The position numbers and the translations under genes were made by a program. A DNA stretch of 64,000 nt from contig JASANH010000630.1 of assembly GCA_030248295.1 (NCBI GenBank), forward strand, positions 62,001 through 126,000, read 5' to 3'. The stretch is from Mesodorylaimus sp. YZB2_4 (lineage: Eukaryota; Nematoda; Enoplea; Dorylaimida; Dorylaimidae). Below, in pieces: positions 16,950 to 48,450 of this stretch (its first letter is position 1; every line of letters starts with the position of its first letter). The notes beneath the pieces were generated by a model that saw only the letters and a list, made by a program, of their open reading frames with translations, did no database searches and was not told the origin of the DNA.

Positions 16950-18058
16950 ATGTCGTCTCAAGCGATCAGCCAAAGTCGCATGAGCACTTCGCAAAAACCA
17001 TCAGTTGGCAGTTGCACTGTGCTCGGGAGAAAATCAAAAATCAACTGCTTCTTGTTGATGCTGATAATGGTATTAGCTGTCGAGTTGTTACCGTCGGCCG
17101 AGGCGTGCTACTTGAAAAATTGTCCGCTGGGAAAAAGGGCAGGCAAGCGCACTCTCGATAGTGGCCTGTTGGACAGAGAAATTAAAATCAAGTCGGTAAG
17201 TTTGTGCTACTTTTTCGCATTTTTCACCTTTTTCGCATTTTACGCAAGGAGTGATAGCATGCCGATAGAATGTCCTTACTGTAGTCATCGAATACTCTAT
17301 ACCTGGGCCTTTTCAAATTAACATTTTGTAATGTGAATTACTCAAATAAATTCAAATTTCCCGCGCTAACGGAAGCTGAGGCAGGAACAAATGTGTTATC
17401 GCTTGCCAGCTAAACTAGCTTCTTACATTTTACCTCTTATGTCCCTATGTGCAAGTTTTCTAACTGGTTTATCTGAAAATTTAGTGTCCCCGCTGTGGTC
17501 CAGGTGGTCAAGGACAATGCATCGGTCCGTATATTTGTTGCGTACCAAACGGGGGCGGGTGCTTGGTGGGTGTCGGAATCAGAGAGACGGCCATTTGCGA
17601 GTCGGAACTTACAAATCCCGTCTCGTGCATACCTGATCTGAGATTCAAGGCATGCGACTTGAATGGCGAAGACGGCGTGTGTGCCAATGATGGCTTGTGC
17701 TGCACTGAAGGTGAGTGCCAGAGTTGAAGGTTCAACCTGAGGGAGCAATGCAACTGCAAACGCTATCGACATAGGCAGTGCAGGTGTGAGCCACGGGGAC
17801 CGCGTTCTATAGCAGATCTCAATGTTTCTCGAAGAAGATTTGTGCAACAGAAAAAGATCTGTCATTAGCAAGGAAAGCTAGTAAATATTCAATGAAATTT
17901 CTCTTATTAAGATTTCTTCAACAATGCTACCCAAACTTTTATCACACATCACTAGCCTGAGTCTGGTTCTTTTAGACGCATGCGGTGTTTCTACGGCCTG
18001 CCTCTCTGATGCGCTGTCATCCAGACGCAAGCGCTTGGCCGAATCAATGATCAATTAA
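16950..18058 (+). CDS. Vasopressin/oxytocin-type neuropeptide-neurophysin precursor, 3 exons, complete
   Basis: The exons are 16950-17195, 17485-17710 and 17976-18058 with GTAAGT and GTGAGT donors and TTAG acceptors. Frames join exactly (phase 0, then 1) to give 184 residues. Residues ~33-52 form the signal-peptide core (FLLMLIMVLAVELLPSAEA). The hormone CYLKNCPLG (53-61) follows, with Gly as amide donor and KR as cleavage site, then a second GKR after one Ala, a ~15-residue linker and neurophysin from Cys83. Neurophysin shows CPRCGPGG, QCIGPYICC and GVCANDGLCC and has all 14 cysteines, ending CGVSTAC. A short tail holds a dibasic RRKR. Exon boundaries match the classic three-exon vasopressin/oxytocin plan. 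Neutral Leu8 is oxytocin-like; Lys4 and Tyr2 are a distinctive combination. The start could be Met1 or Met11. Expected: secreted cyclic nonapeptide amide made in neurons. Confidence 0.95.
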
Positions 18059-24722: not shown

Positions 24723-25353
24723 AGTCCAAAGTGCTCATTCAATTGCTGTAAACTACTAGCACACATTTCGTTGCATTTACATTAACGTATATATCGTTAT
24801 CGTTCGTTAACGATATCCCAAAAATATCGTTATCGTTAATCGTTAACGGTTTCTCAAAAGATATCGTTAACGCGTTAAATATCGTTATTTTTTCGCGGAA
24901 AAGACGCAATGTTGACGCTTAGTAAGCTGGGAATCTGGCGGGAGTGCTGTCGAGTTCCTCTGGACTCTGAGCACTGAAGAGAAACAGTGGACTTGTCGCC
25001 TCCGAAGAGGTCTGCCAGACAACTTTATCCATTTGGGGGACCGCATCCGTTGGTGCCACTTGGTCAGCCCCCGCCTTGTCCAGATGATGCTCGCCTGTTC
25101 AAATTGTAGCCGCATAAACTGGGTCCTGCTTCCTGCACCAAATCGCAGCAAGGATCCCCATTTATAGACTGGCTTGCTGGCTAATTCGCCCTAATGGCCT
25201 ATCACCTTGCATCATTGTCCACCATTGCACCAACCACAACGCGGCTGCGGTGGTGTGGGCGGTTCTAGTTCTAGTTTTCCTTGCTAAAACGCATATAATG
25301 CGCACTCAAAAAGCAAGTCACACAATAGAAGTAAAAAAAAGCAAAAAATACAT

Positions 25354-26100: not shown

Positions 26101-26757
26101 CGGCTTTAGGCAAAAACAAAAAATTGAAAAAAATGCACCAGCAACAGCGACACCAAGGAGAAACTACCAGATTCCTCTAAGCACTCTAAGCTTCCTTTAA
26201 CTTTTTTGAAGTATTAATTGATTCAGGATGTGATCTGTTTCTAATATTTATTGGATACCTTTGTTAATTTTACAACGACGCGCGCAATATCAGACTTCTG
26301 CTGTCCAAACACAAGTCTCATCAAAACACTGTCAACATGCCCCTTTTAATTACTGTACCGTCAGTATTTTTAACTTTTTGCTTGTCAATTTTTCTATCTT
26401 GCTTGACATTTTGGAGAACACTGTTGACATTCTAGACACTCCAGTAGTGCAGGTGCTTTCTGACGCCGCGTCTGGTACAATTTTTAGGTTGGGAAAAATG
26501 TTAGTGTTATAGGAGACTGATGTTGCATTTACCAAGTTGCAAGTTGCATCCTGCGATCGTGGTCAATACCATCCCGCGCGTGAAATTGCAACTTTGAAAC
26601 TAAGAACTAACGGTATAATTAACGATATCATATCGTTTTTTTGGACGAATATCATTATCGTTACCGTTATTTAATAAAATATCGTTATTGTTATCGTTTC
26701 GTTAACGACGTTGAAAAGATGTCGTTAACGACATAATATCGTTATCGTTATCGTTAA

Positions 26758-28036
26758 GGCTATACACGCTAATTCACATCAAAAAGATTATTCGATGGCA
26801 CCCTTCGATGCCCGCTTATTTTTTAAGGTTCTGATTTTCCTGCGTTTGGTTGCTTTATTACTTTTCCTTTTGTACCTAATTGATTGGTTTTAAGATATAC
26901 AACCATGGTCGCCATTATTATATGTGTATGTTTTGTGCGTCTGTGTGTATACTCCCCTTTCCTTACATTATACTCTTGCCATAATCCAAATAGCGTTAAA
27001 ACAAATGCACTCAAAAATATTTTTAAAAAACTTTTTCAAAGAATATCCTCCCATAAAATTTTTCTTTCCCTCTTTTTCTCTAACGCTCCGCGCCTTCTCA
27101 CCCTTTCTTTTTTGTACAGGGTAAGATCCTATCACTCCATGTCACAAGTCTTTGTCGCTTCGTTGCCATTCATTGCGTTTTCTCCCCCCCCAAAATCTAC
27201 AAAATCTAGAATTTCTTTGCAGAGCCCCCGCAGTCTCGGCCAGATTTTGCTATTCCCTGGGCTGCTTGCTACACTCGCGAGACTGGCGACTGGAGGCTGG
27301 CGTATGCCTGATGAAATTTTAAGCGGGCTCAGCAGCAGGAGCGATTCTAATTTTGTCTTTGTAAGCTCTAACAAGTGTAGGGAACGGCGTTTCGCAGAAG
27401 AGCTAGACGACGAAATCTCTCGAAAGAGGCGCCGTTTTCGACTGGGCAACGGCGCTGCACTCGAAAAGCCGTCAAGAAGGCTCTCGAACCGCGTCATCCA
27501 CTTCGTGCAAAGGTACTAGTAAATTTTGACGACGGCTGACGCTTCTTCGCACATTTTTCAACAGAGAATACACCAAACCCAAGTTCCTTGAAGTCGCCCA
27601 CGTTTCGCTGCAGGCGGATTCTAACTTGCTCCCATTTTACCCTTCAACGTCATTCGCTCCGCAGTTGCTGAGCCTAAAGCATTTTTAGAGCTGCGTGTTT
27701 CAGAGGTTCGGAACTTTCGACATCAGGACCCAGTCGAAACTATCGAATCTTTTCTTCAGCCCCGAGGCCTGTCTCATTTCCTCACTTTTCGAGGCGCTAA
27801 AGAGCCGAACCAGACTCTTGCTTCTTCTGTACGCGAGGAACCTCCTGCATTAGGTATGTAATTACGTGTGCAAAACTCGTGACAATTTCAGTTTTCGTGC
27901 TGCAAAAAGTTTCAATTTGACATTCTATAAAGTTTTATAAATGTTATCATAGTTCTGCAGAATTATGAAAAGATCCTAATTTTGATTTATTTTGATAATA
28001 AAATTTACTAAATGGCATTTTTCTTGCGACTTTCAG
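26758..28036 (+). other. Upstream region of troponin T with possible 5' exons
   Basis: No independent gene is recognised. A candidate 5' UTR exon ends at 27853 (CTGCATTAG then GTATGT), which would splice to the acceptor before 28037 (GCGACTTTCAG). A frame open from 27138 to 27516 ends CAAAG then GTACTA, also phase 2. It could be a second alternative N-terminal exon, but the donor is weak and the opposite strand is open as well. Confidence 0.35.
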
Positions 28037-28077
28037 TTTCTCCAATTTTTCGTTAATTTTCGTCAAATATCATCAAA

Positions 28078-31000
28078 ATGGCCGATGAAGAGGAAACCTA
28101 TCAGTAAGTGTTTTGTAGAACTTTTGCTATCTTATGGGTACTTTGAATAACCGCGAATTCAAAAATTCATATTGGGCAGTCTCCTTCACTTTAGCTTCGC
28201 TACAGTGCTGTGCTCGTTGTAATGCCAGCACCACTGACTAAGTGATATGCAAAACAGAGGGCCAAGTGCAAAAGTTTTATTCAGCTTCTGTAATTTCCGT
28301 GTTTCATATTTGCGAGCAATTCTTCCGTTTTAATTTTATTACGCTGAGTTCTAAGCCTTGCCCAAGTCGCGATAGATGCCATTATGCCTATTATGTTTCT
28401 CAAATTAAGGCCCTGTTCCATTGAAAAAGATATGAGTTCAGTTTAGACAGAGAGTGAGGCTACAGTATAGCCCTAACGTGCTCCTGCTGTAATCAGCCGG
28501 GGGATCCTCCCAGGAAGAAAATATAAGATTTTTAAGCCTCCTGGCAGATGGAAAACAAGCTTTCTTTCTTTTTGCTAAGACTTCGGTGAGTTTATAAAGT
28601 TTATACTGTGACTGCGGTGAGTTTATAAAGCCATGATCATTTAGATGAGGCAATTTTCTAATTTTCATAGCATAGAGGGAATTGCCTTCTGCTCTGCCAC
28701 ATTCCATGTACACCGCCGGGTGCATGCTGTTGAGCTGCACTTTTGAATGCTGCGGCAATTTCGAAATACAATGCCATAAAATTTAACTACTCTGACCTAC
28801 TGTAGGTTTTTTTAATTAGGATATCAAACGATATTAGCCTGTTCTACAGTCAGTGGTAGCGGGCTGCATGATTTCAAAACCATGTGGCATGCTAGTTCAT
28901 GAGGATCCTTCTGTCTGAGAGGCCCTTCGGTAGGTGAACGTCTTATACTATGACTGAGCAGTGCACTCTGCACCAGCAGCCTAGCGAGTGGGTGTGATGA
29001 CCCTATTGGCGTGCAAGACTTCTTTCCACTGCCACTGCTTTTTGCGATCGCGTGAGGCTAGGACTGAGGCCCGTGGTTCTTTCTTTTAAACATAGACTCT
29101 ACTCTGCTCGCCCAGATCTTCGGCTAGTTTTTCTGCTCGATTTCAATGTTGTGCATTCTTCATTAGAATCCTTCGCTTTTGTTCACCTTTGCTTACGTAC
29201 CTATGCTTTGTTTCGCATCCAATAAAACCATCCCCCGCTGCCTCTCATCAAACAAAAAGCAGGTTCGAGGCTAGAAGTTTGGTGTGTGTGCTAGGCTAAA
29301 AGAAAAAGCAGATGCCGATTTAACTCATTCTTCCTCTCCTATCCGATTCGTGTTCAAAAATACATTCGACAATAGATTCCACTCGAACGTCAGTTTAAAG
29401 TTCAATGCTAGAAAACTTTGCGCGCCTGCTTCTTCGTCTCTTGCTCTCACTGGTTCGCACGCGGCACCGAGGCCGCCGCCGTCGAGCAACTCGGTGCCAA
29501 TGGTCGACGAGTCTCGAGTTTCGAAAGAAGTCATCTTGTTTTTATTGCTTTTACCTCCTCAACCTCGAGCCAGTCAGTTACGCGCTGCTTTCTTCGCTGT
29601 TCCTTTAGACGAACGGTAAGAAGAACGCGGATGCTTCTCGATCATCCATCCGAGCAGGAGGCACGAAGAAGAGGCTAACAAACAAGTAGCAAACTTCAAA
29701 TTGCATCAGTCCCGCTGTTTTGTTGGCTTCGTTCAGTTCAGTCCGTCCGTCCATCCAGAACCCTAGCCACCAGTTCTTTCCTCTATCGCTTAGTTGTTTT
29801 GGTTCACCGAGAAGAAACAAAACACTCTTTGGCACTAAGCTTTTCGATTTCGTGGACGAACAACCTGTTCTGATTTTTTAATTGACTCGACGATCCGATC
29901 GATTTTTTGCGAACCATGTATTCGAATAGTGGTAGAACGCCGTACACGGGTGCTCATCGCGCCTCCTTGTATGGACTTGGAGCTAGCCTCAGTGGGGCCG
30001 GCCATGGCAGCCATAGTGGATCGAGTGCTGGTTTGGGTGCGACTGGTCTTCGTCGAAGCAGTCTTAGCGGAATCAGTTCATCCTCTTATGGACTTGCCAG
30101 ATCCGATTCTTTCGGCAGTACGTCCTCGATTGGTCACAGCGCCTCGAGTAGTAGCAGCACTGACACCGGCTCCCCCAGGACCGCTAGAAGATCCAAGTCA
30201 ACCACACTGGAGAGTGAGAAGCTGTCGGCTATCAGTGACTGTATTCGAAATTTGATCAAACTCGACACAGAACGGCTAGAAATATCGGAACGATTAGACA
30301 GAACCAATCAAAGTCTAAAAGAGGAACTTTTAAAGCAAAAACAACTTCTGGATCAAAGATCCAAATTTGGGATTAAGGATCTGAAAGAAGAATTACTCAA
30401 ACAAAAGCAGTTCCTGGATCAACGTTTGGCCGCGTCCCAGTCAAACCCCGATGACTCACCCACTAGTGATCAAATGCCTAATCGGAACCCGCTCCGACGA
30501 TCGGGTCGCTTCTTGAGACGACGCGGCCTAGCCGAGACCACGATCGAAGAAGAAGAGCTGGAAGAAGCGCCTGACATCGCGAGTGTGCCCGCTGATCCGG
30601 CACCTACTGTCACTGCCACGTCGGATCCTACTGTAATAGTTCTCCCTTCGATGGATACTGTAATCGATATCGAAAAATCTTCATCGATTGATCAAGGCTT
30701 CGATTCAGGCCTAGATTCGTCCGAGTCGGACGACTTGTCTGCGTCCGTCAAAGATTCAGTTTTCGAAAGTTGGGATGGTAATGATCGTCAAAGTGAGGCC
30801 AAGTTGTCTGCCATACTAGAGGAAAGTTGTGGGGAGAAGGAACGACCAAATGTAAATAATGTAATTATTGACGTCGAATATGACCTAGCTAATTGCCTGG
30901 CTCATTCTTCGTCAGACCCTGCTTTTCTGGACGTTCCTGTTATGATGAGGGATACTGCACAAATCGGCTTGTTGGCGTGTACCCAGGCGAAACCTGCCAT

Positions 31001-34000
31001 CGACTTTGAAATTGATTCTAAACTGGCAAGGCTGGAGGACTCTGCGAATGGAACAAATGACGATGGACTCAAACAACCAGAGCGCGCTGAACCAGTTGGT
31101 GAAACTGCGAAGGACTCTGATCAAAGGTCGGACAAGAAGCTAGGGTTGTCGAAACCAGTCATTGATAGCAAAAGTACTCAAGATCTGCCCGCTGATAAGA
31201 CAAAAGATCGAGCCCCAGGCGACAAGAAGACTCCAGAAAATCGATCTTCAATCGATCAGAAAGCTGAGTCGCAAGGAGCCAATACTAAGTCTGCACTGAC
31301 CACCGAGAAGCTTACGACTGTTAAAAAGTCAGAGTATCGCACTTTACGTTCCGAACAGGATAAAATCCTTGATCAAAGCAAGGAGATCAGCTCTGAATCT
31401 AAGAAGCCTGAATCACCTGTTCTCAAGTGCCGGGATGGCTTCAAGGCAGTTTTGGAAACTAAACGGCTAACTAAATTGGAGCCAGCGCCACCTGAGCAGT
31501 TGCCACAGCCAAAACAGAGTCAGACAGAACAACAAGAACAGACGCAGCCAGAAATAACGCCACAGTTCAGGCAGCCAGACAAATCAGTCCTCAAGTCTGC
31601 ACCTACATCAGACGCCAAATCACTGGCACCAAAATCAAAAGGAAAGGAACCACTTGCACAGACGCTTATGCCCCCATGGAAATCTCTTCCTACCAAGCCC
31701 AAAGTCCCAGAGACTGTCTCGGAAGCCAAATCGCCACAAGCCACTAAGGCAACGTTGGCCGAACCACAAACAGAACCAAATCACGCGGTCACATTAGACT
31801 CCAAAGTAGACCCAAAAAGACAAAAACAACCATCCCCTAAGCCGCCAATTGCTCAGACGAAAGAATACAGTCCAAAACCAAACACAAGCCAAGTAAAACA
31901 GCCGCAGACAACCAAACTCGATATAAAAACCAAGCCAAAAGTTGAAGTGGCCAAAAAACCAATTGTCGTTCAGCAGACGATGGCTCTTCGTAAGGCATCA
32001 AAGCATTCGATCGCTGACGCCTCCGTGATTTGTGCTCAGCGAAAGAAAGAGGAAACCAAACTGCAGGTCAGAGAGGAACCACTCGGGCAGAAGCGCAGGA
32101 CATTAACTCCAAAAGGGGAGACAACAGAGAAGAAACCAACAGAAAAAAGGCAAATGTCTAAAAATGTTGAACCAGCTGAAAGAAAGCCCGCGAAGCCTCA
32201 AGCCAATAATCAGCAGCCACAAAAGATGGATATTCGGAAGAAGTCGTTGACTCCCGTTGATGACAAAAAACCACCAGTCAAGAAACTTATGACCAAAGTG
32301 GAGAGCAAATCGACGACAAAGGCACCTATTCAGCAAGAAAAACGTACGGGATCCAGGGAAAACGCAAGGAAATCGCCAGAAAAGCAACTGGCTGCATCTG
32401 CCGAAAATGGTGTAACGAAGCAGCAGGAACGACAGTCGGCTCAAGGACGAGGTGCTGCCAGAGAAAAATTCAGCGCCAACGCGACAACGAAGGTCGATCT
32501 GGAGGAAAAAGCTGCGGCCCCAACCGAGAAGAAGAAGATGAACTTGCCTTTGAAACGTCATGGAAGCAAAGATTCTGCGAGAAAGAAACAAAACAGCAAA
32601 ACATCGCTGCCAACTCATGAACCATCGGAAGGACGTCGACTGCAAAGTCGATCCCCCTGCCATGAACGATTGACTGACTCCCGATCCCGATCCAAAAGTC
32701 GAGACAAAAAAGTAGCGCATGATGCTTCGAAAAAGTCTGCCTTACCAGATTCGAAAAATGATGCCGTGGCGTGCCTTCGCAGTCGCACTCCCACTCATCG
32801 ATCGTCATCTGTCACAGTCCAGGATGGAGTGCCGGACAGCTCTGACCGGGCCACCTTCATTCGTCGAAGAACTCCATCGCGGCTTCAGGTGTCTCAGGAT
32901 CAGCCTTCCACTGATGGTGTGTCGTTACGACCACTTCCTAAAACGCAATGCAAAGTGGGCAAACTAGCGAAAGACGATAATCTGAATCAAGTATCCTTGC
33001 GCCCAGTCGCCCGCGGCCAGCACCCTGTCCAACAGCGCAATTACCATCGCTCGTTCACTGTGGACGTCGGGTCGCTGTTGAGAACAGGAGCCGATGATCG
33101 CAAGAAATGGAAACCCAAATGGCGCCAAAGGTAAACTGTACTCGTGTTGTCGGCAGCGAAACTTTGATTGACTGGCTTGCTGTTCACGAAGCGAAGATGT
33201 GGCGCAGATTTTCCACTGATGTCATCCCTCTTGAATTTCAGTTTTTCCCGCCTTATAAATGTAAATCAATTTATAACAGTTTTAATCAAAGCATAAACTT
33301 GATAGAATGAAGGTGATGAGATGGCTAGAACAGGAGTCTGAGTTTTAATAAAAGATCCGACTGGCGCTCTTCGTGGCACTAATATTGGCTGGCTGGCTTT
33401 CCCAGAAATTCGCTAGGTATAGAGTCTTGGGAAACTCATTTCGTGCGTATTAATGTTAAAAATCATAAAAACTCATTTCGAGTTGGACTGGAGGCTGACA
33501 AGACCAGCCAGTCAGAAGCAGGCCCTACTTCGCTGAAGGTGGTAGCCTGGAGCACTGGGCTTAGACTTACGATTTGAGTTCTACCTGTGCTGTAAATTTT
33601 CCAAGTCCTGGAAAGATGTCTGAGTCAAAATGGAATAGGTGATTTCTTGAAAGCAGTCACTTTGACCTGTGGGAATCTGACCTATTGTTTCTTTTTCAGA
33701 GAAGAAGAGGGAGAGGAAGAGGAGGCCGAAGCCGAGGAGGCGCCGAGGTAAGTGCGTATACTTTGTCACATGCGGTAATGATCCAACTGATGCATGACTG
33801 GATCAGTGGACTGAAGTGCGAGGCGAGAGATTGTCACAGCTAAAGTTACCTCATGCTCTGACCTTTACATGCTAATTTTAAAAGGCGCAACACCACTAAA
33901 CTGCTAAATATCGCCTCCTGACTTCATGAATTTGTTCTCATTCCCTGCTCTGATATTAGCATGATTGAAAACAGTATCAACTCAAACTGTCAGCAGTTAG

Positions 34001-37000
34001 TATGCCCTGCAATGCAGTCACTATTCGCCGCGCGCTTGCATCCACCCTGATACAAGCAGGACAAGGCTTTTACTTGGAAGGCACCGACGAGTTGGGCCGA
34101 CTGCTGGAGATCCTTGGTCTCTTTCCGAACTTGGCGCGTCTCGTCCTGCAAGGCCGAAGAAAGTTAAATATGCTTCGCCTGCGCCTGTATCTGCAACGAA
34201 AGAGGAGCCTGGTACTCACCGCCTTGATAAATCTGTATTTCAGACTCATAGCCAGATAAATGCTAATCCATCCCGCATCCAGATTCCGCATTACGCTTCT
34301 AAAACAAACACACAGTGGCCCTAAACACAACTCTAACGATAACTCAGGCACAGCTGGCTTGGTTGCTAAATCTCTTCTGCTTCCTATCTTTCTATCTCTC
34401 AATCACTTTCTGTTCATCTCTCTGCTCTATCATTATGTTAATTTCTTATTATTCTGTCCTGTACACTTTCAGCCAGTCAGAGGCGGTAGAAGAGTCCGCA
34501 CAAGAAGAGGAACAGCCAAAGTAAGGATAAGTCTTTCTCTTCAGTTTCTTATGAATCTTCTTTAAAATTTTCATTTTCTTTACTCTTTTTGTTGGTGGAT
34601 TTTACAAGCTGTTTGGAAAAAGTGTTTGGGGTTATTTTTTACACGTTTTCTGTGTGTGTGTGTGTGTGTGTATTCAGAATCCTTCAGACTCCTTCTCGAA
34701 AGGCCGGTCGTATCTGGCTATCTGGCAGATACTGTAGAAACTGTAGTATCCTCAAACTTTGATCCTTTAGTCCTGAGCTACAGTAGACTCGTGTTCCTGG
34801 TAGTAACTGGCAATTTCTGTACTGTTTTCTTCACTTTCAGGGAAGAAGAGAAACCCAAGTAAGAACCAGTGGCTTCGCTATCTAGCATAGACTTTTCGCT
34901 GTAGAACTTCGCCAACTTTATTGCTTTTTCAAATTAATTTCTACCGCTTTCGCTACCTACACTCCGATTCAACCTTTTTGTTATTTTTCCATAGAGCAGC
35001 CATTTTGCAGTTTTTTGTTTCATGCTTCATCCTATTGGGTTAATTTGTCATCAAAATCTATTTTTCCTGTTACAGGCCCAAGCCACCACCACCGCGCCCA
35101 GTCGATGATGGAGGCCAAACGAAAACTGAAGCCGAATTGGCTATGCTGGTATGCAAAGCTTTTTGCAAGCTTTCTATAAAAAAACAAGAGTTTCGTGGTC
35201 TTGCAGGCGCAAAAGAGGAAACACGAAGAAGAGGAGGAGGCCAAGTTGGCTCACTATGAAGAACAACGTCGCATTCAGCGTGAGAAGGAAGAAGAGGAGT
35301 TGCGTCTCCTGAAAGAAAAACAGGTGAGCATGTAATTCTTGGTTTTTGGTTAATTCGGAAAAAACTAAATGAGTCTAGTGTGAATTTAATCAACGTATTA
35401 ATTCTATGGGGGATGGGGAAAGTAAATTTTCAAAGATCAGCCCCATTGCTAAATTTTAATTCCCGCTATGTTTACTTGCCTGAGCACCAGGGTTTTAATT
35501 CAAACTCCGAATCCAAGCATACCATTTTAGGAACGCCGTAAACGTGAACGCGAAGAGGAAGAGCGCATTATGGCCGAACGTAAGGCAGCCGAAGAAGAGC
35601 GCCGTCGTGTAGAAGAGGAAGAGCGCAAAGCCAAGGCTGAAGCCGATCGTCAACGCAAGGAAGAAGAAAAGCGCAAGCGTCAGCAATTGATGGCTGGATT
35701 GCAAGCTAGCGGTGGACCCAATTTCGAAATCATCAAGAAGGACAAGCAAGCCGAGAAGTTCGACAAATTCGGCAACATCGTCAAGGCCAAGGCTGAGATG
35801 GGTCTGACCAAGGAGCAACAAGAAGACCAGAAGAAACGTGCTTTGGCTGATCTGTTGAAACCATTGGACACATCTGGCTTGGATGTCAACGTAAGTGTGA
35901 TGTATCCTTCGAAAAACATCAGCTGGGGTGGGTAATGTGATTCGGCTGCAGAAGGTAGTCTGCATGGTGTAATGCTGCTTCGGCAAGGCAGGCGCCATGA
36001 TTATGAATGGCACACTAGGTGCTGATAGTGTCTACAATCAGGTTATTACAATTGTAAATCAGGTTCTGCCTCTTTTAGGCTCTGCGCGCCAAGATCAAGG
36101 AATTGCACGCGCGCATCACCCGTTTGGAGGGTGAGAAGTATGACATGGAGAAACGCCGTGATCGTCAAGAATACGACTTAAAGGAATTGAACGAACGTCA
36201 ACGTCAAATCTCGCGTAACAAGGCCTTGAAGAAGGGTTTGAACCCGGATGAAGTAACCAACAGCCCGCATCCAGTAAGTGTTTCTTGCTTTTTAGGCTAG
36301 CCATTGCATGAAGCCGTCAGAGTGTGATGAGCGTATGGGGCGAGGGGACCAGAAGGGATTGGCGGGAAAGTCGATTATCTCCTCCTTCTGCTGTCTCTAT
36401 CCTTGAATAGCAATATAGTTTCTGCCTGCCAACAGCAGTCCCATTCTTTCTCTCTTTTTCTTTTACTTCAGCCAAAAGTGCCAGTTGCGAGTAAATATGA
36501 TCGTCAAATCGATCGTCGCTCGTATCACGATCGTTTTACCATGTTCGAAAACGTATGTATACATTGGTTTTTCTTTATTTACAGCCCAAGGTGCCAGTCT
36601 TCAGCAAGTATGATCGGCAAATCGATCGTAGGACTTTTAAGGAAAGGCGGGCACTTTATGATATTGTAAGCAAAAGTTATGGACTAAGCTTGGCTTTGTT
36701 GGAGAAGGTGATGGGTTTCAAGATTAGTAGTACTTAAGCATAAAAGGTTCTCGATTCTGTCGCTAGAGTCCAACCTCGTGAAAACTGTTTCATTTCAGAG
36801 CTTAACTTCTCGCGAGCCGCTGTAGTTTCGTTTGGCCATCTCAGCTTGGCCATGTATGCTAACAATAGCCCTGATGCATGCTTGCATGACCTGTTTGCAA
36901 GCATGTACCATGTGAATTCTTGATCGTTTTTGTTTTACATTCCAACAGGAAAACTCGTACCCTCACTTTCCCAACGTGCCAATCTCGGATTTGATGGATA

Positions 37001-38359
37001 CGAATAAACCAACGATGCAAGCTGACGGTGATAAGCAAGGGGACACTTTAACACCAGGGGAAGAAATCGAAGTGGTAATTGACGAAGCTGAGTGAAGAGC
37101 TCATGTTTTTGCGAATGTGAGCTCCTCGTCCTGTGCATGTTTGTTTCTAGTTTGTTCAGTTTATGATTTACAAAATAAGTTTTTGATTTTTTTATTCAAA
37201 AAGTTTTAGTTTCTTTTTTTAGAAATATGGCAGAAAGCGACTGAATAGTATGATCGCTTATTTTGGCGCTGATGAGGACGACACCAGCACTGCTACTTGA
37301 TTGGTCCTCTATTTATGACTTCATTTTTGCTCGCTTGTAACCTTACACTAGTTAAAAATATTTAGCACAATTTCTGCATGATAGCAAAAAACTTCTGGTG
37401 CTTGCTTTATTTTGGCTAGTATTTGGCAGAAAATGTTTAGTTCGGGTTATTGCTTAGTTTTATGTCCTGATTGTCCATGTAGCATGAGTTGTTCGGTGCT
37501 ATAATTTGTGGGCTTGTGATATGGCATGGGCTGAGAAGGTGCTTATTGGGTTTTTATAAAATGAATGGGTCATTTTCAATCAGTTTGGGTGTTAGTCTAT
37601 CAAATACGCAGTGCGGAACGAGGGCGAGGCTGTTGGACTTGTTAGGCCATTTATGCAGAAAGTAAAAGGAATTGCAACAGGCACCAATTCTCACCAGCAC
37701 GAGCTAGAGGAAATAGCTGATTTGAATCGGATCAGAAATCCCAGTGGTGCGGGTTCGCCTCCTACTCGGGCTCATGTTTCGCGTTGGCTTTCTATGTCTT
37801 AGCACGAGTTATTGTAAGCGTGCAGTATGGTGAGACAGCGTTGATATCTGCCGCGAAAATGTTACCTTTGCCTGATAACTTAGGGCCGCAGGTAGATCGT
37901 TGTCATTTCTCACGATGAGCCTGTCGATCGTACTTGCTGACGTCATTGTCATCATGATCGATTTCCCGTGACTAATAGCCTTACCCGACGAATTTCAGCC
38001 CCCGAAGCCGAAGAAGCCGGCCGTCTTCCATGGTAGCGCCCGCCCACCATCCGAATGGGGTCGTAAGGAAAATGAGGAATTAGAAAATTTGAGAAAAAAC
38101 CTCGAGCCACCGAAATATCAAGAAGCCGTCAAGATCGAAGGCGCCAGACCACCAATGGAGCCGGTTCCGGTCAGCATCGAAGGCAACGAGGTAAGTCATG
38201 GCTTACAGTAGTTTATGTGACCCTGACACAAGCCCCACGCGCATGCAATGCAATATGTCTGCAGGCGCACTGTGTACAGTACATGCATAGCGTACTGTAA
38301 AATTAGCAGCAATAATAAATTTTGCGCTTCTGTTTCAGGAACCGGAGGAAGAAGAGTAA
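28078..38359 (+). CDS. Troponin T, multi-exon (basic isoform of 392 residues)
   Basis: Coding exons, all GT-AG and in frame: 28078-28103, 33700-33747, 34473-34520, 34841-34858, 35076-35148, 35207-35323, 35531-35890, 36079-36273, then 36472-36552 or 36585-36665, then 37999-38190 and 38339-38359. The protein begins MADEEETYQ, continues with a Glu-rich N-tail, a PKPPPPRP linker, and a long Glu/Arg coiled coil ([20 protein letters not shown]). It then has the conserved core: [49 protein letters not shown]. The tail holds [19 protein letters not shown] and NLEPPKY and ends EEPEEEE, a layout I recall from nematode troponin T. Troponin T anchors troponin I and C to tropomyosin on muscle thin filaments. 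The short Glu-rich N-terminal exons all share phase 2, so they can be skipped without shifting frame. A non-coding 5' exon is likely, because an acceptor precedes the ATG at 28037. Confidence 0.95.
29916..33130 (+). CDS. Giant basic, disordered exon; probable alternative first coding exon of troponin T
   Basis: A 1071-codon frame starts at ATG 29916 inside the first troponin T intron, same strand. Residues ~1-85 are Ser/Gly-rich; ~90-160 form a likely coiled coil with a duplicated KEELLKQKQ(L/F)LDQR; residues ~160-1072 are a Lys/Pro/Glu/Gln/Ser-rich, apparently disordered tail with SR dipeptides and repeated [15 protein letters not shown]. It ends CGCCAAAG/GTAAAC. The in-frame TAA at 33132-33134 is created by the GTAA of this donor, just as at other phase-2 exon ends of the gene. 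Exon phase is 2, the same as the MADEEETY exon, so splicing to 33700 reads ...[12 protein letters not shown] and gives 1455 residues. Alternatively it is a nested single-exon gene of 1072 residues ending at that TAA. The first reading fits the phase and position; transcript data are needed. Its upstream leader (29.2-29.9 kb) may hold its own promoter. Confidence 0.75.
34651..34671 (+). repeat. (TG)n microsatellite in a troponin T intron
   Basis: About ten TG units lie upstream of the 18-base exon at 34841. TG tracts can affect splicing of short exons; that effect is inference. Confidence 0.8.
36472..36665 (+). CDS. Troponin T mutually exclusive exon pair
   Basis: Two 27-codon exons, 36472-36552 and 36585-36665, are tandem duplicates: [20 protein letters not shown]... 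and [20 protein letters not shown].... Both have phase 0 at both ends. The gap between the first donor (GTATGT) and the second acceptor (TTTACAG) is only 32 bases, too short for a normal intron, so both cannot be included together. The first 16 residues are nearly fixed, while the last ten differ strongly (RFTMFEN versus RRALYDI). This segment lies in the C-terminal region that contacts troponin I/C and tropomyosin, so the swap probably tunes muscle-type-specific regulation. Confidence 0.88.
36949..37095 (+). CDS. Troponin T alternative C-terminal exon 1
   Basis: After the strong acceptor TTCCAACAG, a phase-0 frame of 48 residues ([17 protein letters not shown] ... [11 protein letters not shown]) ends at TGA 37095. 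It would replace the EWGRK tail. It is acidic and Pro-containing, unlike the standard tail. Splicing from either of the preceding phase-0 exons keeps frame. It is not a recognised troponin T tail, hence moderate confidence. Confidence 0.55.
   Translation, partial: ENSYPHFPNVPISDLMDTNKPTMQADGDKQGDTLTPGEEIEVVIDEAE
37223..37300 (+). CDS. Troponin T alternative C-terminal exon 2 (short)
   Basis: An acceptor with a T-rich tract (TTTCTTTTTTTAG) opens a phase-0 frame of 25 residues, [20 protein letters not shown]..., ending at TGA 37300. The basic KYGRKRL followed by an acidic end resembles the compact C-termini of other troponin T isoforms. Its position, phase and acceptor fit use as a terminal exon. 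Confidence 0.5.
   Translation, partial: KYGRKRLNSMIAYFGADEDDTSTAT
37596..37802 (+). CDS. Troponin T possible alternative C-terminal exon 3
   Basis: A phase-0 frame of 68 residues ([18 protein letters not shown]... ending VSRWLSMS) opens after GGGTGTTAG and closes at TAG 37802. The polypyrimidine tract is poor. Coding character is suggestive but unproven; it could be non-coding 3' sequence of the shorter isoforms. Confidence 0.3.
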   Translation, partial: SIKYAVRNEGEAVGLVRPFMQKVKGIATGTNSHQHELEEIADLNRIRNPSGAGSPPTRAHVSRWLSMS

Positions 38360-40033
38360 ATTTATGAAGCCAGCACCGTAGTTATCAGACTGTTACATTA
38401 TCTAAACTCCGAACCGCCCGCTTGCCTTATCGCCTCGTCTCAATCACCAAGTGTGTGCTATGTCGAACTTATTGTTTAGTCCTGAGCCACAGTTGCAAGA
38501 GGAGGTGCATAGCTTTACGTATTGTATAGACGAGGACCTTGCCTGAAGTTCATACAGTGCCAAAGTGATGTAGAGACTGGAATTTGGTCTTGCTTTGTGT
38601 GCTGCTTAGCTTTTAGTTGATTTCTTTTTGGAGGAGGTCAATCTAGTCAAAATGTGTAACTATTCAGTTCATGAACCTGGTGCCTGTCGGAACTGACTGA
38701 TGCAACAATGGTGCTATAAGTGTGCAGGTTTTTCTTATTTAAAAAGTTGCTGTTAAATAATTTGAGCGAGGTGATGTATGTCGCATCGGTGCGGTTTATC
38801 TAAGTTTGGACGAACAAGAAGTAAACCTGTAGCTCTTTCTGCCAATCACTGTTCTTTAGTGCCAATGACCAGTGAGTAAGAATCAATGACGTGCAGCACA
38901 ATTCATTCACCAGGTAAGCACAGCGCGATACGCCGAAAGAGTGACCAGGGAGCAGCAGCAGACGGTCTGGCCTGGTATACCGACATCACAGCCGGTCATA
39001 CGATCAGGAGCGGCCCTGTGCAAAGGGTCGATTTCCAGCCCTCGAGGTTTTGAAAACTTGTAGTAGGAACTGAATAACTGAGGCTGGCTGGGCCCCGTAA
39101 TGTTGGAATCGTATCATACTTACAAAGAGGAGGTCGATCTAGTCCAAATTTGTACAATATTTTGCATAATCCTGGTGGCTGTCAGAACTGATCGATGGAA
39201 CACGTGTGCCAACAATAAGCTATAGACAGCGGCTTTACTTACTACAGTTACATTGCAGCTTTTTTGTGACTCAACTCATTGCACCAATGCGATTGCGTTC
39301 TTCAAATCTAAAAAACCACAATCATCTCTGTAGCCCCAGTAATCGTTTACAGCAATGAGAATCCACATTTCGGCGCTCGCTTTTTTTCGTTCCGACAGGG
39401 CTGATTGTGGATATGCAGAAAATTTTGCAATTTAAACAGCAGACTGTTTATTTGGCTGTGAATGTACTGTGAATTTGCTGTTTCGTTGTTTTCTTCATAC
39501 GCAGTCATCAGGCAGAAATCTGCGCCGACCTAAAGATCCGCATCAGAAGCCAGGAAGTTCAGGAAAACCTTTTCAAAATTAACAATTTCTCCTGTTGATA
39601 ACCGTAAAAGCTACATGAAGTGCCAGATGTGTGACCAACAAATTATAAATTGTAGCGCAGTATATAATGCATTATAAAAACAGCATCTTTCTGGTTTTCT
39701 GTTCCGTGTATAGTTCCAAATTTTTTGTATTCGTAAGCTTTGCGTGTGGCCGCACAAACCCATAAAAAATGCAGTACGTACACTGCATGTTTGTGTTTTA
39801 CATTACGGAATATTTATTGTACTGGTAATATAAAATTTAGATATTGTGAAGTTAAGCCGATAACCCGTAAAAAATATCACTGATCAACAACCTTACGACA
39901 TTACCTAAAAATTCTGATGCTGTGGTAAGCCCTTGTCCCAACAATAAACCCATAGCGCAAAAGGCATACTGTAGATGCAATACATCTGGAGTATATATTT
40001 GTGTATATATCACAATATGGCGTATTATCTTCC
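38360..40033. other. Troponin T 3' UTR and intergenic sequence with a tRNA-like fragment
   Basis: The stretch starts with the probable 3' UTR of the long troponin T isoform. At about 38990-39050 a B-box-like AGGGTCGATTTCCAGCCCT sits downstream of AGCACAGCGCGATACGCC, suggesting a decayed tRNA or SINE. No gene is otherwise seen up to the converging channel gene. Confidence 0.4.
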
Positions 40034-43000
40034 TCAAACTTTGCCGTTTTGAGGGGATGTCGCTCTTTGACCGTTTCCACCCGTCGTAACCTTCTTTTTG
40101 AATACTTTCACATAAATCGACCATATAATAAATCCAACGGCCATGAAACACATTTCGAGCATGGATATCAACGAGGCGCCCATCCACAAGTTGATTTGCC
40201 CTCCGAGATTTGCCACCAAATCGGCGAAGGAGGCGAACGGTTGCTGGATCAACTCGGCGTATTCCAAGCGACGGAAGGACACACGCAGATCGATTAACTG
40301 CGACGTTGACACATTCGGTGGCAGCTCGATATGGGCGTAGGATGGCTCGTGCAATTTGGCGAAACTTGCCCTCATATCGTAACGATAGCTCTCGCATGGC
40401 GGATGGCAATGAGCGAGGCACGCATTCACGGCTTTTTGCGCTTCCTCATTATCGGGCAGGACACCCACACATTCCCTGAAACAAGCGGGAATCTGACTTA
40501 AAGGAAATTCAAATTCAAAAAAGGTGCTCGAGTATAAATTTGAATTCAGTAAATATCTTACGCGAACTGTTTAGGGGAACAGAAACCAGTGTCATTTAAT
40601 ACGTCGGACTTGACTTGACCACGATCGACCAACATCAAACATTGGCAGTGGTTCCTGTGCGATTGGAAAAGGCAATCCATTTGACACGTTGTACGCGAAT
40701 AGTTGGCTTTGAAAATTTGAAATACATCATCGGCTTCGTCATCGTTGTAACAATGCTGGATCAGTGGACCACTGTCGAAATTCTCCAAATGCACGTGAGT
40801 CATTGCGAGATCGAGCTTGGTAACTCGACCTGCCGTAACGCACGTTTTCTCCCAATTGAATGGATTGTACTCCTTGTCTATGCTGACCACAACACCACCA
40901 TAGACTGGTGGTTTTTCTTCGGGTGATTTAGGATACAGATTGATATGGGAGTTGAGGACGAGGCTTAAACCTAAATAAAACCTTTTCGTTCAAATGTGGA
41001 AATGGCGGGAAATTAAAATTTTTGACCCAATAAACTTAAAATTTGTAAAGAAAGTAAAGAGAAGAAATTTAGTTTGAAGAAATAGAGTTGATGCAAAAGT
41101 GCTAAGCCGTTATTGAAATGGGAAGATATTAAATCAGGAGAGTATGTACCTTTGCCAGCCACAGTTTGTTTCATGTCATCAGGCAAATCGACGACGTAGC
41201 AAAGGAAGTAATTGGCGTCCACGACTGGTCTGACAATGTCGCGGCAATTCAATCGTTGATGTTGATATCCTTGGAAATTGCATTCCAAAAAGGTGTCATC
41301 AATTTTGAATCCAGCATCTAGATAATATTGATAAATGACATCGGAAATGTTGGGTGATTCGAGCATTGCTTGGATTCGTTCTTGGGCCGCTTTCAATGCT
41401 GCTTCGTGTTCGGCCTTGGTTCGATTAGCTTCCTGGGCGGCTTCTGCGAGAGAACATAGGAAATGATAAGAGGTTTTGGCTACGATAGCACTGAACAAGC
41501 TCTTATGTGGCTTTTTGTTGAAAACCAAAGCGAGCTAGTCAGCTGTTGATCAAATGATAAGTTATCTGCGCTAACTCTCCTTGAATCTGGCCTCATTTTG
41601 CACCAAACAAAAAAGGATTGAGTGACCACAGAATAAGTTGCCTCGAGGTGAGACAATGCTTCCATTCAGTCATGAAGACTTGTACTAAGTTCAGATTTGT
41701 ATTAAAATTAAGAAACGCAAAGGCCGCGGGAAAACCTAACGAGGAGTCCCGCAAAGTCACCAACTACTGTAAATGCCCTGCTGTGATTTATTGCGGCGGC
41801 ACGCATGTTTTTTTTGCAATGTCGCATCCGCGCCAGCCTTGTCAGCAAGTATGAACAAGAGATAAAGCCCGAAGCGGCAATGGTGAGTCAGAGGCTTGTC
41901 CGCAGCAGGTACTGTATACTGACGTGCAACAACTCCTCTCCTCCGATAAGGGGAACTCCAGGTCTGAAGACTCCGACTCTCGTACATCAGACAGGTTGAG
42001 TGGCCCATCCGCCTACAGTACAGTAGGACGCTTTGTCAGGTGTCAGACGGTCAGTAGGTCAGAGGCTGGGAAAGGCCGAGCCAATTCAGAAAATTGCTGG
42101 TTTGCAAGGCCCAGGCCTTTGACTGCTAGTGGTCTACTGTACAGGCAGTAGGAGCTTGCAGGAAGTTTTATGAACCACGAGAACTTTGTAATGTAAAACA
42201 TTTGCGGGCCTTTGAAAGTATGATATGGTCCATCAGAATCCACGTTACCATGCACCAATAGCGATCAGCACTTACTCAAGGCTTCCTCAGCTGATCGATT
42301 AGCAGCAGCCACCGTGACAACGTCGCGCCTCAATCGTCCATGTTCATCCAATGCACTGACAAAATCGAACCCATCGCTCTCGCTATCGAACGCATCATCG
42401 CTTTGCAGGTTCAAAATATTGAAAATTTCATCATCGCTTAATTCGGAGATAGCGGATTCCGCTTCTCGCTTTTTGCGCCCATTTTTCCCTTTTTTAGTGA
42501 CCGCATTTCTGTTTCGATAAGCCACAGCCACGGCCATCATATCCTTATGCATTTCCATAAAAGTGCGATTCATAGCGCTACCGTAGCAAATATAAACTTT
42601 CGGGAAATCCAGAGCTTGAGGTGTGGAAATGGTGAACTTCGTTGTGACTGGTGAATTTTGATAATCATCTACGCATTTCCAAATTTCGAATGATAAAATG
42701 CCGACGATCAAAAATAACATAATTAGCCAGAAGATTTTGGCGGCCCAAGTGGTAGCTCGACTTGCCTGTTTGAACCCTTCCATGTTCACGCTTTTCAAAA
42801 CCGTATTTAATCGCACGCTCAATCTTTCCCGTTCAGCTTGCGATGCTTTGGTCACATTCTGCCAATAAGACAACATGTCGGCCGCGTTGTTAGCTGGCTT
42901 GTTGGGAGCTGCTAAGGCCGCGGCGAATGCTGAACTGGTGGCCAATTTGTGTTCCCCAGTGCTGGCTGCATCGGCTTTCAGTAAATCGAATAAACCGGGG

Positions 43001-43143
43001 GTTATACTTTTTTTTTTCTTCTTTGATGCATCCTCGCCTTCCGACTTTGGTTCTTGTTTTAATTGACGAGGATACAATGCAGCCTTTTCGATGTCAGGAT
43101 TCCGTTGATTATGAATAGCGGCTGATAAACTCGGAAGCGGCAT
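40034..43143 (-). CDS. DEG/ENaC/ASIC-family sodium channel subunit, 4 exons, 670 residues
   Basis: Minus-strand exons 43143-42276, 41443-41150, 40970-40562 and 40475-40034 join in frame with GT-AG sites. TM1 lies at ~134-152 (KIFWLIMLFLIVGILSFEIW), followed by the post-TM1 motif FPKVYICYGSAMNR (family FPAVTICN). The Cys-rich ectodomain runs to ~600, with CQMDCLFQSHRNHCQC, then ECVGVLPDNEEAQKAV and ACLAHCHPPCESYRY. Pre-TM2 and TM2 lie at ~610-645 with the selectivity-filter region LWMGASLISMLE (GxS). These are diagnostic of trimeric amiloride-type Na+ channels. A KKKKK tract lies in the N-terminal cytosolic region. Between residues 223 and 273, furin-type RKKR and RLRR bracket an acidic 47-residue tract. 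The stop is TGA at 40034-40036. Gating may be mechanical, proton or peptide; the sequence does not tell. Confidence 0.93.
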
Positions 43144-46100
43144 GATTCTTGGGTTGAAGATAAATCAAGAAATTCAACCTCGGTATCGCCCAATCACGTC
43201 TGAAAAATTATGATTTTAGGGAAGTTCTAGCATTTTCTAATCGCTGCTTAAAATCAAGAAACATCCGTCCTGCTTTTTTTATCCCGGACTTTTCATTATC
43301 GTCAGCTGTTGGACACCCGTAGCCTGGATTATGCTTACGTAAGCTTCAGTCTGAAACTTATGAGCCACAGCATTGTCGATGAAACTCGTTGCCTCTGAAT
43401 GATCCCTCACTAATTTCTAAACTTCAACCGAGGAGCTTCGCTTCCGAAGACTTGCATTTTTGACTAATTAAAATTCAGAAGCAGTTCACAGCCAATCGTC
43501 CATATAAAACTTTTTTCTTAAGCCACATTTGTAACATCATTGTATATTTTCCTCATGATCGGTCACACAATGATCTTTCAAATATCTCCACTTACCAAAG
43601 TTTCAATATTTTTTGAACAAACAATTTTCCTGCTCTCAAACACTTAATTCTTCTCTCACAACTTGTTCGTTCGCTTTCAAAAATCTACAGTAAGTCAACA
43701 AAATGATTTTGTCGAAGGGCTGTTAGCCAGAGAACGGGGACATTGACGAGATATGTTCCGGCAAGACATTACCTTGTGACGTCTTCTGTTGTTACGAGTT
43801 GGCAATTTTCAAACAGTTCAACCTAACATTCTTCATCGCATCATCCTACGCTCGTACAATGCATTTTTCGCTTGGTTTAGCATCAATCAGTGACGAGAGT
43901 AAATTGGAAAGGTCCGTTCTAAAACTTTCGCAAGACTCGAACCTTTTTAGACCCGTTTTTAATTGAACCGGTTCGAAAAAGGGCGTTTTAAAATGGAGTT
44001 TAGATATTTTATGGGTCGCCATTAAACGACTGTCTATTGCCCGCCTTGAAAGAGGTTGCGAGAGAAATGTATAGTTGACAGCCAGACAATATTATGGTAG
44101 GGCAAACAGTCTGTCAGGCTTGACTCGATTTGGTGGTTGTGGTGAAGAAAGGCTGCAGATTGTTGATGGGTGGGGTGAGAACGCGAATATGTTTTCACTG
44201 CCTACCTCCTCCAGTCGAGGTGCTCACATCAGCACTGAACTGTTTCATGAAGTAATTGACTGCATCACTCGCGAATCTCTTCAATGCACGATCTAGCGAT
44301 CAATCCATGACAAGTTTTGCGACTTGCATGAGACTGGCAGTAAGAGGGGTGCTGAGTTTTATGCTCTAATCGTGAATTCTGCCTTGAAGGAGCGCAGATC
44401 TCGTGTGTAAGCACTTATCTCTTTAGGCGAAGCACCCTTACCGTTAGGTTCCTCTGCCCAACTCTAGTAACCGGACGCAAGATGACAGTTGCTGGCCTGT
44501 CTACCAACTTTTCTTCTACTCACTGAGGATAAGACTGAAAACGTGGTCGCAGAGCAAGAGCTAAGATCTTTAAAGCCAAATTATACTCTCCACTGCCAAA
44601 AATATTTTTTAGGCGTCGCATTTTTTTGACACATCCTCAGCTCTGCCCGAAATTATGCTATTGGTGCAAAGAAGTAAAAGGCGCACCCACTCGAATGCGT
44701 CAATCACGTCAGATATAATTATGTTATGGCCGAATGCTGTTTACCTCATGTCAAAGTAATTTTTTGTTGTGAACGATATTTCCACATCAGTTAGCACTGA
44801 AGATGCCGGTGGCGGTTTCGGCAATTAAAACATGCGTCAATTCAGAGTCGGGAATTCCTTTCAGACAATATTGTACGTGCAGTACAAACTGCATGGTCAA
44901 ATCACATGGTATTCCTGGAGCACGTGGCAGGTGGCCCGAGTGTTTTTTCGACTGTATCACCCGATATATGACGGAGTCTCTACTCTAAAATAAGCGGTGA
45001 AAACACATTTTTTAATTGTTTTGATATTGCGCTTGATTGAGCCGGTGTTTGGAGAGGCGCTTTATTGACTCGTTTCGTTTTTGGACAAAACTAGTTGCTT
45101 GCTGCGCTCGCGGAAGCTTCTAATCAGTGATGGGCTATATGTTCGCCAATGCGTCTGCTCAATACAATAGGTACCTCATTAGGTCAAAGACTCAAGCAGA
45201 AACGTTATCGGCGAGGCAGAGTAGGATACGTTCATTTGTTTACGACATTCTTCATTGAACGGGGTCAGGATACTATATTCGCACTTGCATTTGCGGCTGA
45301 AACATCAACCCGAAGGGCATTGGCAAAGAAAGAAAGAAAAAAGAAAGAAAGAAAGGATTTCTTCTTCGTCACCGTTAAACAGATTCAGGAATAAGGTCGA
45401 TCCTCAATCACGTTTTGGGTGACACATTGCGCTGGTACACCGACCGAATATCCGGGTTTCGATTGACTGAAGGCTGAACCGCTTCCCTTCAATCATCAAC
45501 TTTTTAGGCTCTGGCTTCTTCAGCCAAACTCGGCGATGCCAGTTCACGATTTTCTCTTTTCGCACGATTAAAATAATCAGCTTCCTGTGACGCTCCATTT
45601 CGGCTAGGTCACCCAGATCAGCGAAGAAAGTCTTCCCCGACGACGTAACTGAACGCGGCACTATCTAGGACTATATAGTGTTTACCCGCACGCTTTAGAA
45701 GACACGGCTAACGGAGACACGCATTTTTTAATCAGACGAATCTGCAAACAAGGAAGTGCCAGACTAATCGTAAGCCTAAGCCTATGATTAGATAGAAGGT
45801 GATAAGACACGCAAAAGTACACAAAGAAACGGATAGAGTAAGTTTCAGGTTGGAAACCACATCCTGCTCGTTAGTGCCGAGTCGTAACTGAACCATAGTT
45901 AATTACTTTTCTTGGAGGTAGAGCCAACAAAGTTCAAGTAGTATTAATATGAATCAAAACCAGCTGACCAACTTGACGCTGTGATGCACACCCATTATGA
46001 CTGCTTATGTCATTGTGACTTCAACACCTGCACATGTCTTGAACACGGACGAACGAACGTTCAAATGCATCAGCCCCCTCGATGACCCCACGCCCTAGCG

Positions 46101-47004: not shown

Positions 47005-48018
47005 TTATCCAAAGCGCAAGCTTCTCAAAATTCTTTTACGAAATTGCTTATTTAAACCGAATGTGATATATAATTCGCCCAAGTCAGACAGCTCGACAAT
47101 CATGTCCATAATTGGTGCTGCCACACCTGTCGCGCACTCAGAGAACCACGGTGACATGTACTGGCCAGCGTAATAGGCCGTTTCTACACCAACCGATATA
47201 AGTTGAAAAAATGATTGGCACAATGTCAATAAATGCAGAATTGTTTCTTTCTCTCGCCGTCGCTTCTCCGATTCTGAACTTTGTATACTTATTTCAGCTA
47301 CCTTTTTATTTCTACTTTGATATGATTTCAAGAGCAGTAAATTCAGAATAATTAATGCGAGTATTGCAAAAACTCGCACGAAATTTCTCACATGGCCAAG
47401 AAATGTTGGTAAAAATTTTTCAACATCCTTTTCAAAGATATAAATTGAATAATAATCATTTTCTGGCACCACTGAGAAAATTAATTCTTCCACATAGCAT
47501 GTCATAAGGCTTATAATAAAGCATATACCTAAACCAATAAATTGATGTCGTTTTTGGTTAATTTTCCGATATTTGACGGGTTTCGACATGGCGAAAACGC
47601 GGTCAGCTGCCATGCACACTGATAAGAGTAAAGAAAGTGTGAAGAACAGACTAAAACTGGCGTGCACAAAGTGTGCAGCATACCACATGAGAGGGTAGGA
47701 CCTCCTGTACCACATGAACCCTTGGGTACCCCCTTCAGCGCCAGACAAGAATTTCACAGTAAGAACCAATGAGACAAAAGATTGCTGCTCCGCAAATTCG
47801 CTCAGAGTGCAAAATATTTGATACATATAGGCAGTGTCGCTTTTATATTCTTTATAGAAAGCGATCAATAAAAGTATGTGGCCTGGTGTGCCCAGGATAA
47901 AGTGAAGCCAAGTAACGATTGAATAAGCAGCAAAGTTAACATTCGAAAATAATTGATTGAAATAAACTGAATTATCGCAGTAAGAAACATTAGTCTGATT
48001 TGTTCCATTCATCGACAT
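47005..48018 (-). CDS. Orphan seven-helix GPCR, 337 residues
   Basis: A single coding exon starts at ATG 48018, seven bases after a good acceptor (CCACTTTCAG, exon start 48025), so a non-coding 5' exon is likely. N-glycosylation sites (NGT, NQT, NVS) fill the N-terminus. Seven hydrophobic segments follow: TM1 ~32-55 (YSIVTWLHFILGTPGHILLL), TM2 ~72-92, TM3 ~110-135, TM4 ~155-175, TM5 ~208-230, TM6 ~255-275 and TM7 ~283-310. The DRY position reads ADR (CMAADRVFAMSKPVKYR). TM7 lacks NPxxY (ELYITFGLNKQFRKRIL). It resembles divergent invertebrate peptide-receptor-like orphans such as those expanded in nematodes. It is not obviously a close paralogue of the receptor at 10902. Confidence 0.78.
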   Translation of the reverse strand: MSMNGTNQTNVSYCDNSVYFNQLFSNVNFAAYSIVTWLHFILGTPGHILLLIAFYKEYKSDTAYMYQIFCTLSEFAEQQSFVSLVLTVKFLSGAEGGTQGFMWYRRSYPLMWYAAHFVHASFSLFFTLSLLLSVCMAADRVFAMSKPVKYRKINQKRHQFIGLGICFIISLMTCYVEELIFSVVPENDYYSIYIFEKDVEKFLPTFLGHVRNFVRVFAILALIILNLLLLKSYQSRNKKVAEISIQSSESEKRRREKETILHLLTLCQSFFQLISVGVETAYYAGQYMSPWFSECATGVAAPIMDMIVELSDLGELYITFGLNKQFRKRILRSLRFG

Positions 48019-48450
48019 ACTGAACCTGAAAGTGGCAAAATAATTCGATTACGTATTTTTATAGCTCGTGACTGGCATGAATAGGGTAGATTATATATTA
48101 TGAAAGCAGTACTTTTGCTCTTGCCCAAGCCCCCGTCGTGCTCTCACAGGGTCAAGGCAAATGAAGCTCATTTTCCCAGGGCAGCTACTGTGCGCGCCTC
48201 AGCCTCCACCTCGTTGAGAAGATATCGTGTGCCTGGGATTTCCCGATTAGCAGGCTGACTTGTGTTCCACTCGCTTCCGTCAACGATTACGGTACAGACA
48301 GCTTGGATGGCCCTGCATTCGAGACTAGGGGAAGAAAACAGTCGCAAAAACCCTCCACCCCAGTTTCACTATTGCATTGACAAGTGACAGTCTGGCTAGT
48401 AAATAATTATATTCAACCAAAATTTTGAAATCGACCAGCTTTGTCTCTGG

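Follow-up and report, generated by a model that had tools for sequence, protein, structure and literature searches.

Invertebrate troponin T (TnT) of the Drosophila upheld type combines a PF00992 core with acidic 5' exons of a single phase and a Glu-rich C-terminus. We analysed a 64,000-nt stretch of the genome of the nematode Mesodorylaimus sp. YZB2_4 (contig JASANH010000630.1, positions 62,001 to 126,000; hereafter the window), which encodes a TnT with the same features, the Glu-rich C-terminus being short, and with a 3.2-kb open reading frame (ORF) in its first coding intron. We tentatively favour the reading of this ORF as an alternative first coding exon of TnT. In this respect the locus differs from the described genes: no 5' exon of 3.2 kb turned up in the invertebrate TnT literature searched, and the major TnT of the tarantula is given as 351 aa (PMC2674065). 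Alternative TnT isoforms that differ in function and in a disordered region are described for Caenorhabditis elegans tnt-3, where 83 residues on the C-terminal side are read in a shifted frame owing to a 28-nt microexon (PMC13247117).

Enlargement of a troponin subunit by an extension of the disordered type has a counterpart in TnH of insect flight muscle, a troponin I (TnI) with a Pro-Ala-rich extension and a mass of ~70-80 kDa (PMC13322953). Unlike TnH, the candidate described here is a TnT, and its basic N-terminal head has a different composition (S 12.2, K 10.9, A 7.5, P 7.5%); the description of TnH as an extended TnI therefore does not apply to it. A second counterpart is the Drosophila tropomyosin isoform Tm1-I/C, which is made from an alternative promoter. 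This 441-aa protein is, according to PMC10948360, a thin-filament gene product with a disordered N-terminal domain that is unique to one isoform and regulates kinesin-1. It is the product of another gene and its head is about one quarter as long, and the adaptor role demonstrated for Tm1-I/C is here proposed by analogy. Nested intronic genes provide the third comparison, being likewise single-exon ORFs within large introns, whereas the ORF in question lies on the strand of its host, is long and ends in a candidate splice donor of the host's phase.

The troponin T gene and a giant open frame in its first coding intron

The conceptual TnT (exons 1c, 2-8, 9b, 10 and 11; 392 aa) matches the Pfam family Troponin (PF00992; E 2.9e-10, 41.0 bits, cut-off 26.2) and TnT chains in the PDB (best E 5.8e-10), and the host gene is accordingly assigned, by sequence similarity, to invertebrate troponin T. 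The short acidic 5' exons 2, 3 and 4 (48, 48 and 18 nt) are each of phase 2-2; the introns between 1c and 2, 2 and 3, 3 and 4, and 4 and 5 are of phase 2, and the other six of phase 0, so that the ORF could join the gene at any of four acceptors. The mapped features, all on the + strand, are the following:

28078..28103, +, first coding exon of TnT (1c), MADEEETYQ, ending in phase 2; exon mapping
29574..29915, +, putative promoter and 5' leader of a transcript carrying the ORF; initiator (Inr)-like motif matches, and an ATG-free stretch
29916..33130, +, giant open exon ending in phase 2; ORF reading
30201..30434, +, predicted long helices (residues 96-149 and 153-173 of the ORF product); single-sequence AlphaFold2 and a fragment model
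30315..30425, +, coiled-coil duplication, copies starting at 30315 and 30381
33131..33136, +, donor-like site AAAG/GTAAAC, with the ORF stop TAA at 33132-33134; donor matrices
33347..33352, +, AATAAA, candidate poly(A) signal in the case of a separate gene; motif scan
33700..33747, +, TnT exon 2, 48 nt, acidic, acceptor score 12.7 (8.0 leave-one-out); exon mapping
34473..34520, +, TnT exon 3, 48 nt, phase 2-2; exon mapping
34841..34858, +, TnT exon 4, 18 nt, phase 2-2; exon mapping
35076-35148, 35207-35323, 35531-35890 and 36079-36273, +, TnT exons 5, 6, 7 and 8; exon mapping, PF00992
36472-36552 and 36585-36665, +, alternative TnT exons 9a and 9b, both frames open, apparently mutually exclusive
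37999-38190 and 38339-38359, +, TnT exons 10 and 11 (with the stop codon); exon mapping

Coding exon 1 and exon 2 are separated by a 5.6-kb intron, in which the frame opens at 29886 on the strand of TnT. The frame has its first ATG at 29916 and extends over 1,072 codons to the TAA. With 33130 as the last base before GTAAAC, the segment 29916-33130 comprises 1,071 full codons and 2 bases, that is, a phase 2 end. The original prediction, which was made from this sequence, had placed a 3.2-kb frame at exactly these coordinates in the first coding intron of TnT, with the TAA of a GTAA donor following AAAG as its only stop, and both statements hold.

An ORF of this length is expected 1.9e-19 times in six frames at the stop codon frequency of the window (0.0467), which rules out a chance ORF. 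Within the frame, a coiled-coil motif ending in [LF]LDQR is present twice, 66 nt apart. Across 15 codons, chosen from 22 compared because they can be aligned (the other 7 differ at every residue and look like an unrelated spacer), 14 of the 15 residues are identical, synonymous sites are saturated (proportion of differing sites, pS, 1.02) and nonsynonymous ones are conserved (pN 0.11; Fisher p 8e-7). Judging from this substitution pattern, the frame is translated and has been under selection since an old duplication, an argument that requires no relative of the ORF, and non-coding or decayed sequence is thereby rejected. No signs of a recent retrocopy were detected, in the form of an A-run near 33.37 kb or a notable flanking repeat in 29200-33700.

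The ORF product (1,072 aa, 118 kDa, pI 9.65) is basic and contains the coiled-coil duplication, as had been foreseen. It consists of an S/G-rich N-terminus, the coiled-coil, an acidic stretch and a long basic part rich in K, P and S; the net charge at pH 7 is -28 for residues 176-400, +21 for 401-700 and +46 for 701-1072. The protein is predicted to be mostly disordered, with one long coiled-coil: single-sequence AlphaFold2 models, which are weak evidence, give a pLDDT confidence score below 50 to 966 of the 1,072 residues, confident helices at residues 96-149 and 153-173 and a weaker one at 471-493, and represent a 111-residue fragment as a single helix (mean pLDDT 82.8). The whole product matched no Pfam family (E up to 1), no NCBIfam family and no PDB entry; when pieces were compared with Pfam, only ThrE (0.096) and BEN (0.19) appeared, each below its own cut-off. 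No relatives were found in IMG/VR or among GTDB genomes, collections not aimed at animals, and nothing in 27000-39000 matched Rfam. The counts of [ST]P, [RK][RK].[ST], [ST].[IL]P and P..P motifs in the protein were at shuffle level and were given no weight.

Several other elements of the TnT gene were recorded. Exons 9a and 9b are two 81-nt alternatives, seemingly mutually exclusive, and 9b lacks the TnT codon bias. In Drosophila TnT, exon 10B is the partner of exon 10A, and these two (10A is named in PMC13322953) resemble 9a and 9b in forming an apparently mutually exclusive pair. An alternative last exon (36949-37095) is open and in frame after either 9a or 9b, and would provide another C-terminus (ENSYPHFPN...VVIDEAE). 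Upstream of the gene, CGTTAACGATATCGTTA-like repeats form two clusters (24790-24890 and 26610-26760).

Splicing or termination at the end of the frame

At its end (AAAG/GTAAAC), the stop codon of the ORF lies within the candidate donor. This site was scored with a matrix derived from 14 donors mapped in the window (11 of TnT and 3 of an ENaC gene) and a prior, the donors being ranked leave-one-out. The ORF donor obtains 3.4, a score that 7 of the 14 do not exceed. When the ENaC donor that resembles it (AAAG/GTACAT, ending at 41150 on the - strand, likewise without G at +5 and with its phase confirmed from the exon ends) is removed, the score becomes 1.7, with 2 of the 13 remaining donors as low or lower; in the leave-one-out comparison with TnT donors alone, 3/11 score below the ORF donor. 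The site is an acceptable donor, not a strong one.

Few stop codons are so placed. In the window, 99 of 5,994 stops (1.65%) overlap an equally good donor with the 14-donor matrix, and 187 of 5,993 (3.1%) with the 13-donor matrix; an equally good phase-2 donor is found within the last 30, 60 and 300 nt before 2.5, 3.5 and 10.7% of stops, respectively. The original prediction also emphasized that the exon shares the phase of the normal first coding exon. Both are indeed of phase 2, but a GTAA donor that supplies an in-frame stop necessarily puts the exon end in phase 2, and the match is therefore worth a factor of ~3 at most. On the downstream side, the acceptor at 33700 is the sole site scoring at least 4 in 33100-33720. 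When the ORF is joined in silico to TnT exons 2-11, the frame contains no internal stop and reads through to the TnT stop, yielding 1,455 residues (163 kDa), the length that had been anticipated for this junction. For a fusion exon, then, the coincidence of stop and donor counts ~10- to 25-fold and the phase up to 3-fold, and the ORF is on the same strand.

The principal rival is a separate single-exon gene nested in TnT intron 1 on the same strand, which terminates at the TAA (33134) and is polyadenylated after the AATAAA at 33347, the donor-like stop being coincidental. Its product would be the 1,072-residue, 118-kDa basic protein, mostly disordered and with a coiled-coil, perhaps of a cytoskeletal or scaffold type. 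We regard this explanation as only slightly less probable than the alternative first exon. The AATAAA is followed by a GT-rich stretch, and genes with a single coding exon exist in the window (the receptor-like ORFs 10857-12071 and 47008-48048); nevertheless, a donor overlapping the stop would be expected at just 1.7-3.1% of stops, and nested genes usually lie on the opposite strand, same-strand nesting being the minority in the counts given by PMC8467205 (76/296 in human, 55/248 in mouse). At 43 copies of the hexamer on the + strand of the 64 kb, ~0.4 would be expected anyway in the 569 nt that lead up to exon 2, and only 2 of the 7 other gene ends examined in the window have one within 300 nt. 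The hexamer is also present at 38314, in the intron that precedes TnT exon 11, and at 29221, elsewhere in intron 1; given these occurrences in TnT introns, the copy at 33347 is weak evidence, which mildly favours a separate gene. Furthermore, an efficient poly(A) site at this position would be expected to cut TnT transcripts short. Since both sets of signals are present, the two outcomes could also be combined, with a promoter inside the intron yielding the 1,072-residue protein through polyadenylation at 33.37 kb and the TnT fusion through splicing at 33130, but we consider this unlikely.

Codon usage was compared by a score for which TnT exons 5-8 and 10, minus the exon under test, served as the training set and seven other ORFs in the window as the background. 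Exons 7, 8, 2 and 10 of TnT score +0.29, +0.40, +0.24 and +0.14 bits per codon, respectively, and the values for exons 3, 5, 6 and 9a are close to zero (-0.09 to +0.03). For the ORF the score is -0.25 and flat across eight blocks (-0.19 to -0.32), close to exon 9b (-0.23), exon 10s (-0.20) and the seven window ORFs (-0.17 to -0.47), which themselves formed the background; the flat profile and the last similarity count in favour of a nested gene. Such usage argues against a major, abundant muscle isoform of TnT, and the ORF could belong to a minor TnT isoform or to an ordinary separate gene. The label of a giant muscle troponin T thus goes beyond the evidence. The original prediction further suggested that the basic head might bind actin, tropomyosin or microtubules.

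A number of observations weigh against an alternative first exon. The donor lacks the G at +5 that is present in 13 of the 14 mapped donors, its median rank in the 14-donor set depends on the single ENaC look-alike, and an in-sample matrix built from TnT donors only places it below 11/11 of these, all of which are in the training set. If donors are allowed up to 300 nt upstream of the stop, as many as 10.7% of stops qualify. The AATAAA begins 213 nt past the ORF stop, and the codon usage of the ORF is unlike that of TnT exons 7 and 8. No giant TnT isoform was found among the literature matches listed on TnT isoforms and promoters, gene nesting, giant forms and tardigrades; in our judgement, alternative first exons of this size are rare; and this ORF was picked out for its striking look.

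The start of the frame and the proposed isoform

Upstream of the ORF, Inr-like matches (TCAGT[CT]) are present at 29574, 29706, 29733 and 29738, the motif being matched 54 times in all on the + strand across the window. There is no ATG between 29631 and 29916, which leaves an ATG-free leader of 284 nt before the first ATG of the ORF. This arrangement naturally suggests that the ORF has a promoter to itself, which would serve the alternative first exon and the nested gene alike. No MEF2 or CArG sites were detected in 26800-30000, so that these motifs do not indicate whether either promoter is active in muscle.

Alternatively, the ORF could be a giant cassette exon between TnT exons 1 and 2, or be arranged in some other way, which we consider very improbable. 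As an exon of phase 2-2 it would keep the frame, but 0 of the 40 AGs in 29880-30400 score at least 3, compared with 8 of the 12 TnT acceptors (leave-one-out), and the ATG-free leader precedes the first ATG. Because this threshold is failed by 4 of the 12 real acceptors, the check was repeated without it. Six phase-2-compatible AGs near the ORF start, scoring -0.9 to -3.5, lie above the lowest real TnT acceptor (-5.3 leave-one-out; 1 of the 12), a value that 20% of all + strand AGs in the window reach. Thus, with compatible AGs that are weak and a real acceptor at -5.3, the cassette exon is graded unlikely, and the score alone is no ground for dismissing it.

We therefore return to the alternative first exon of TnT, a proposal with which the donor, the phase, the strand, the acceptor at 33700 and the coding content agree, and to which the nested gene with the AATAAA at 33347 remains the rival. 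The sequence shows the frame and its selection, the donor and phase, and the TnT exons, whereas the promoter, the splicing and the function are inferred. A second promoter within intron 1, at ~29.5-29.75 kb, would produce a transcript whose first ATG is the one at 29916 and whose first coding exon, ending at 33130, would be spliced to the TnT acceptor at 33700. The resulting protein of 1,455 residues would begin with a head that is basic, rich in Ser, Lys and Pro and mostly disordered, with a single long coiled-coil, and would continue as the whole of an ordinary TnT. By analogy with Drosophila Tm1-I/C, the head may recruit or tether other partners while the TnT part docks on the thin filament and on tropomyosin. 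As its codons are not of the high-expression kind found in TnT, the isoform would be of low abundance or tissue-restricted. Slightly more tentatively than the exon itself, we propose that a promoter within TnT gives rise to a 163-kDa TnT, the 1,071-residue disordered coiled-coil head of which makes a tether or adaptor of a thin-filament anchor, in small amounts or in places other than the main muscles.

Neighbouring genes and implications

The window contains several other genes. A vasopressin/oxytocin-like precursor (16917-17318, +) has a signal-like stretch followed by CYLKNCPLG-KR, a peptide without a literature match. The DEG/ENaC-type sodium channel gene (40037-43164, -; PF00858), of which the splice sites were read, has at least 4 exons. 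Rhodopsin-type receptor ORFs, each with one long open exon, are located at 1-2358 (-), 10857-12071 (+) and 47008-48048 (-); the first of these extends beyond the edge of the window and the second does not reach the Pfam cut-off. A single-exon ORF rich in W, Y and R (9134-9817, -; 215 aa from the first Met) is without a Pfam match.

Should the ORF be a nested gene, the locus would represent an ordinary, albeit unusually arranged, instance of nesting on the same strand. If the junction with exon 2 exists, TnT would be added to tropomyosin and TnI among the thin-filament proteins that carry a giant disordered extension specific to one isoform, in this case several times the length of a whole ordinary TnT. 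Such an isoform would provide a natural test of the cargo that the hypervariable N-terminus of TnT can carry, and of whether troponin parts have roles outside contraction.

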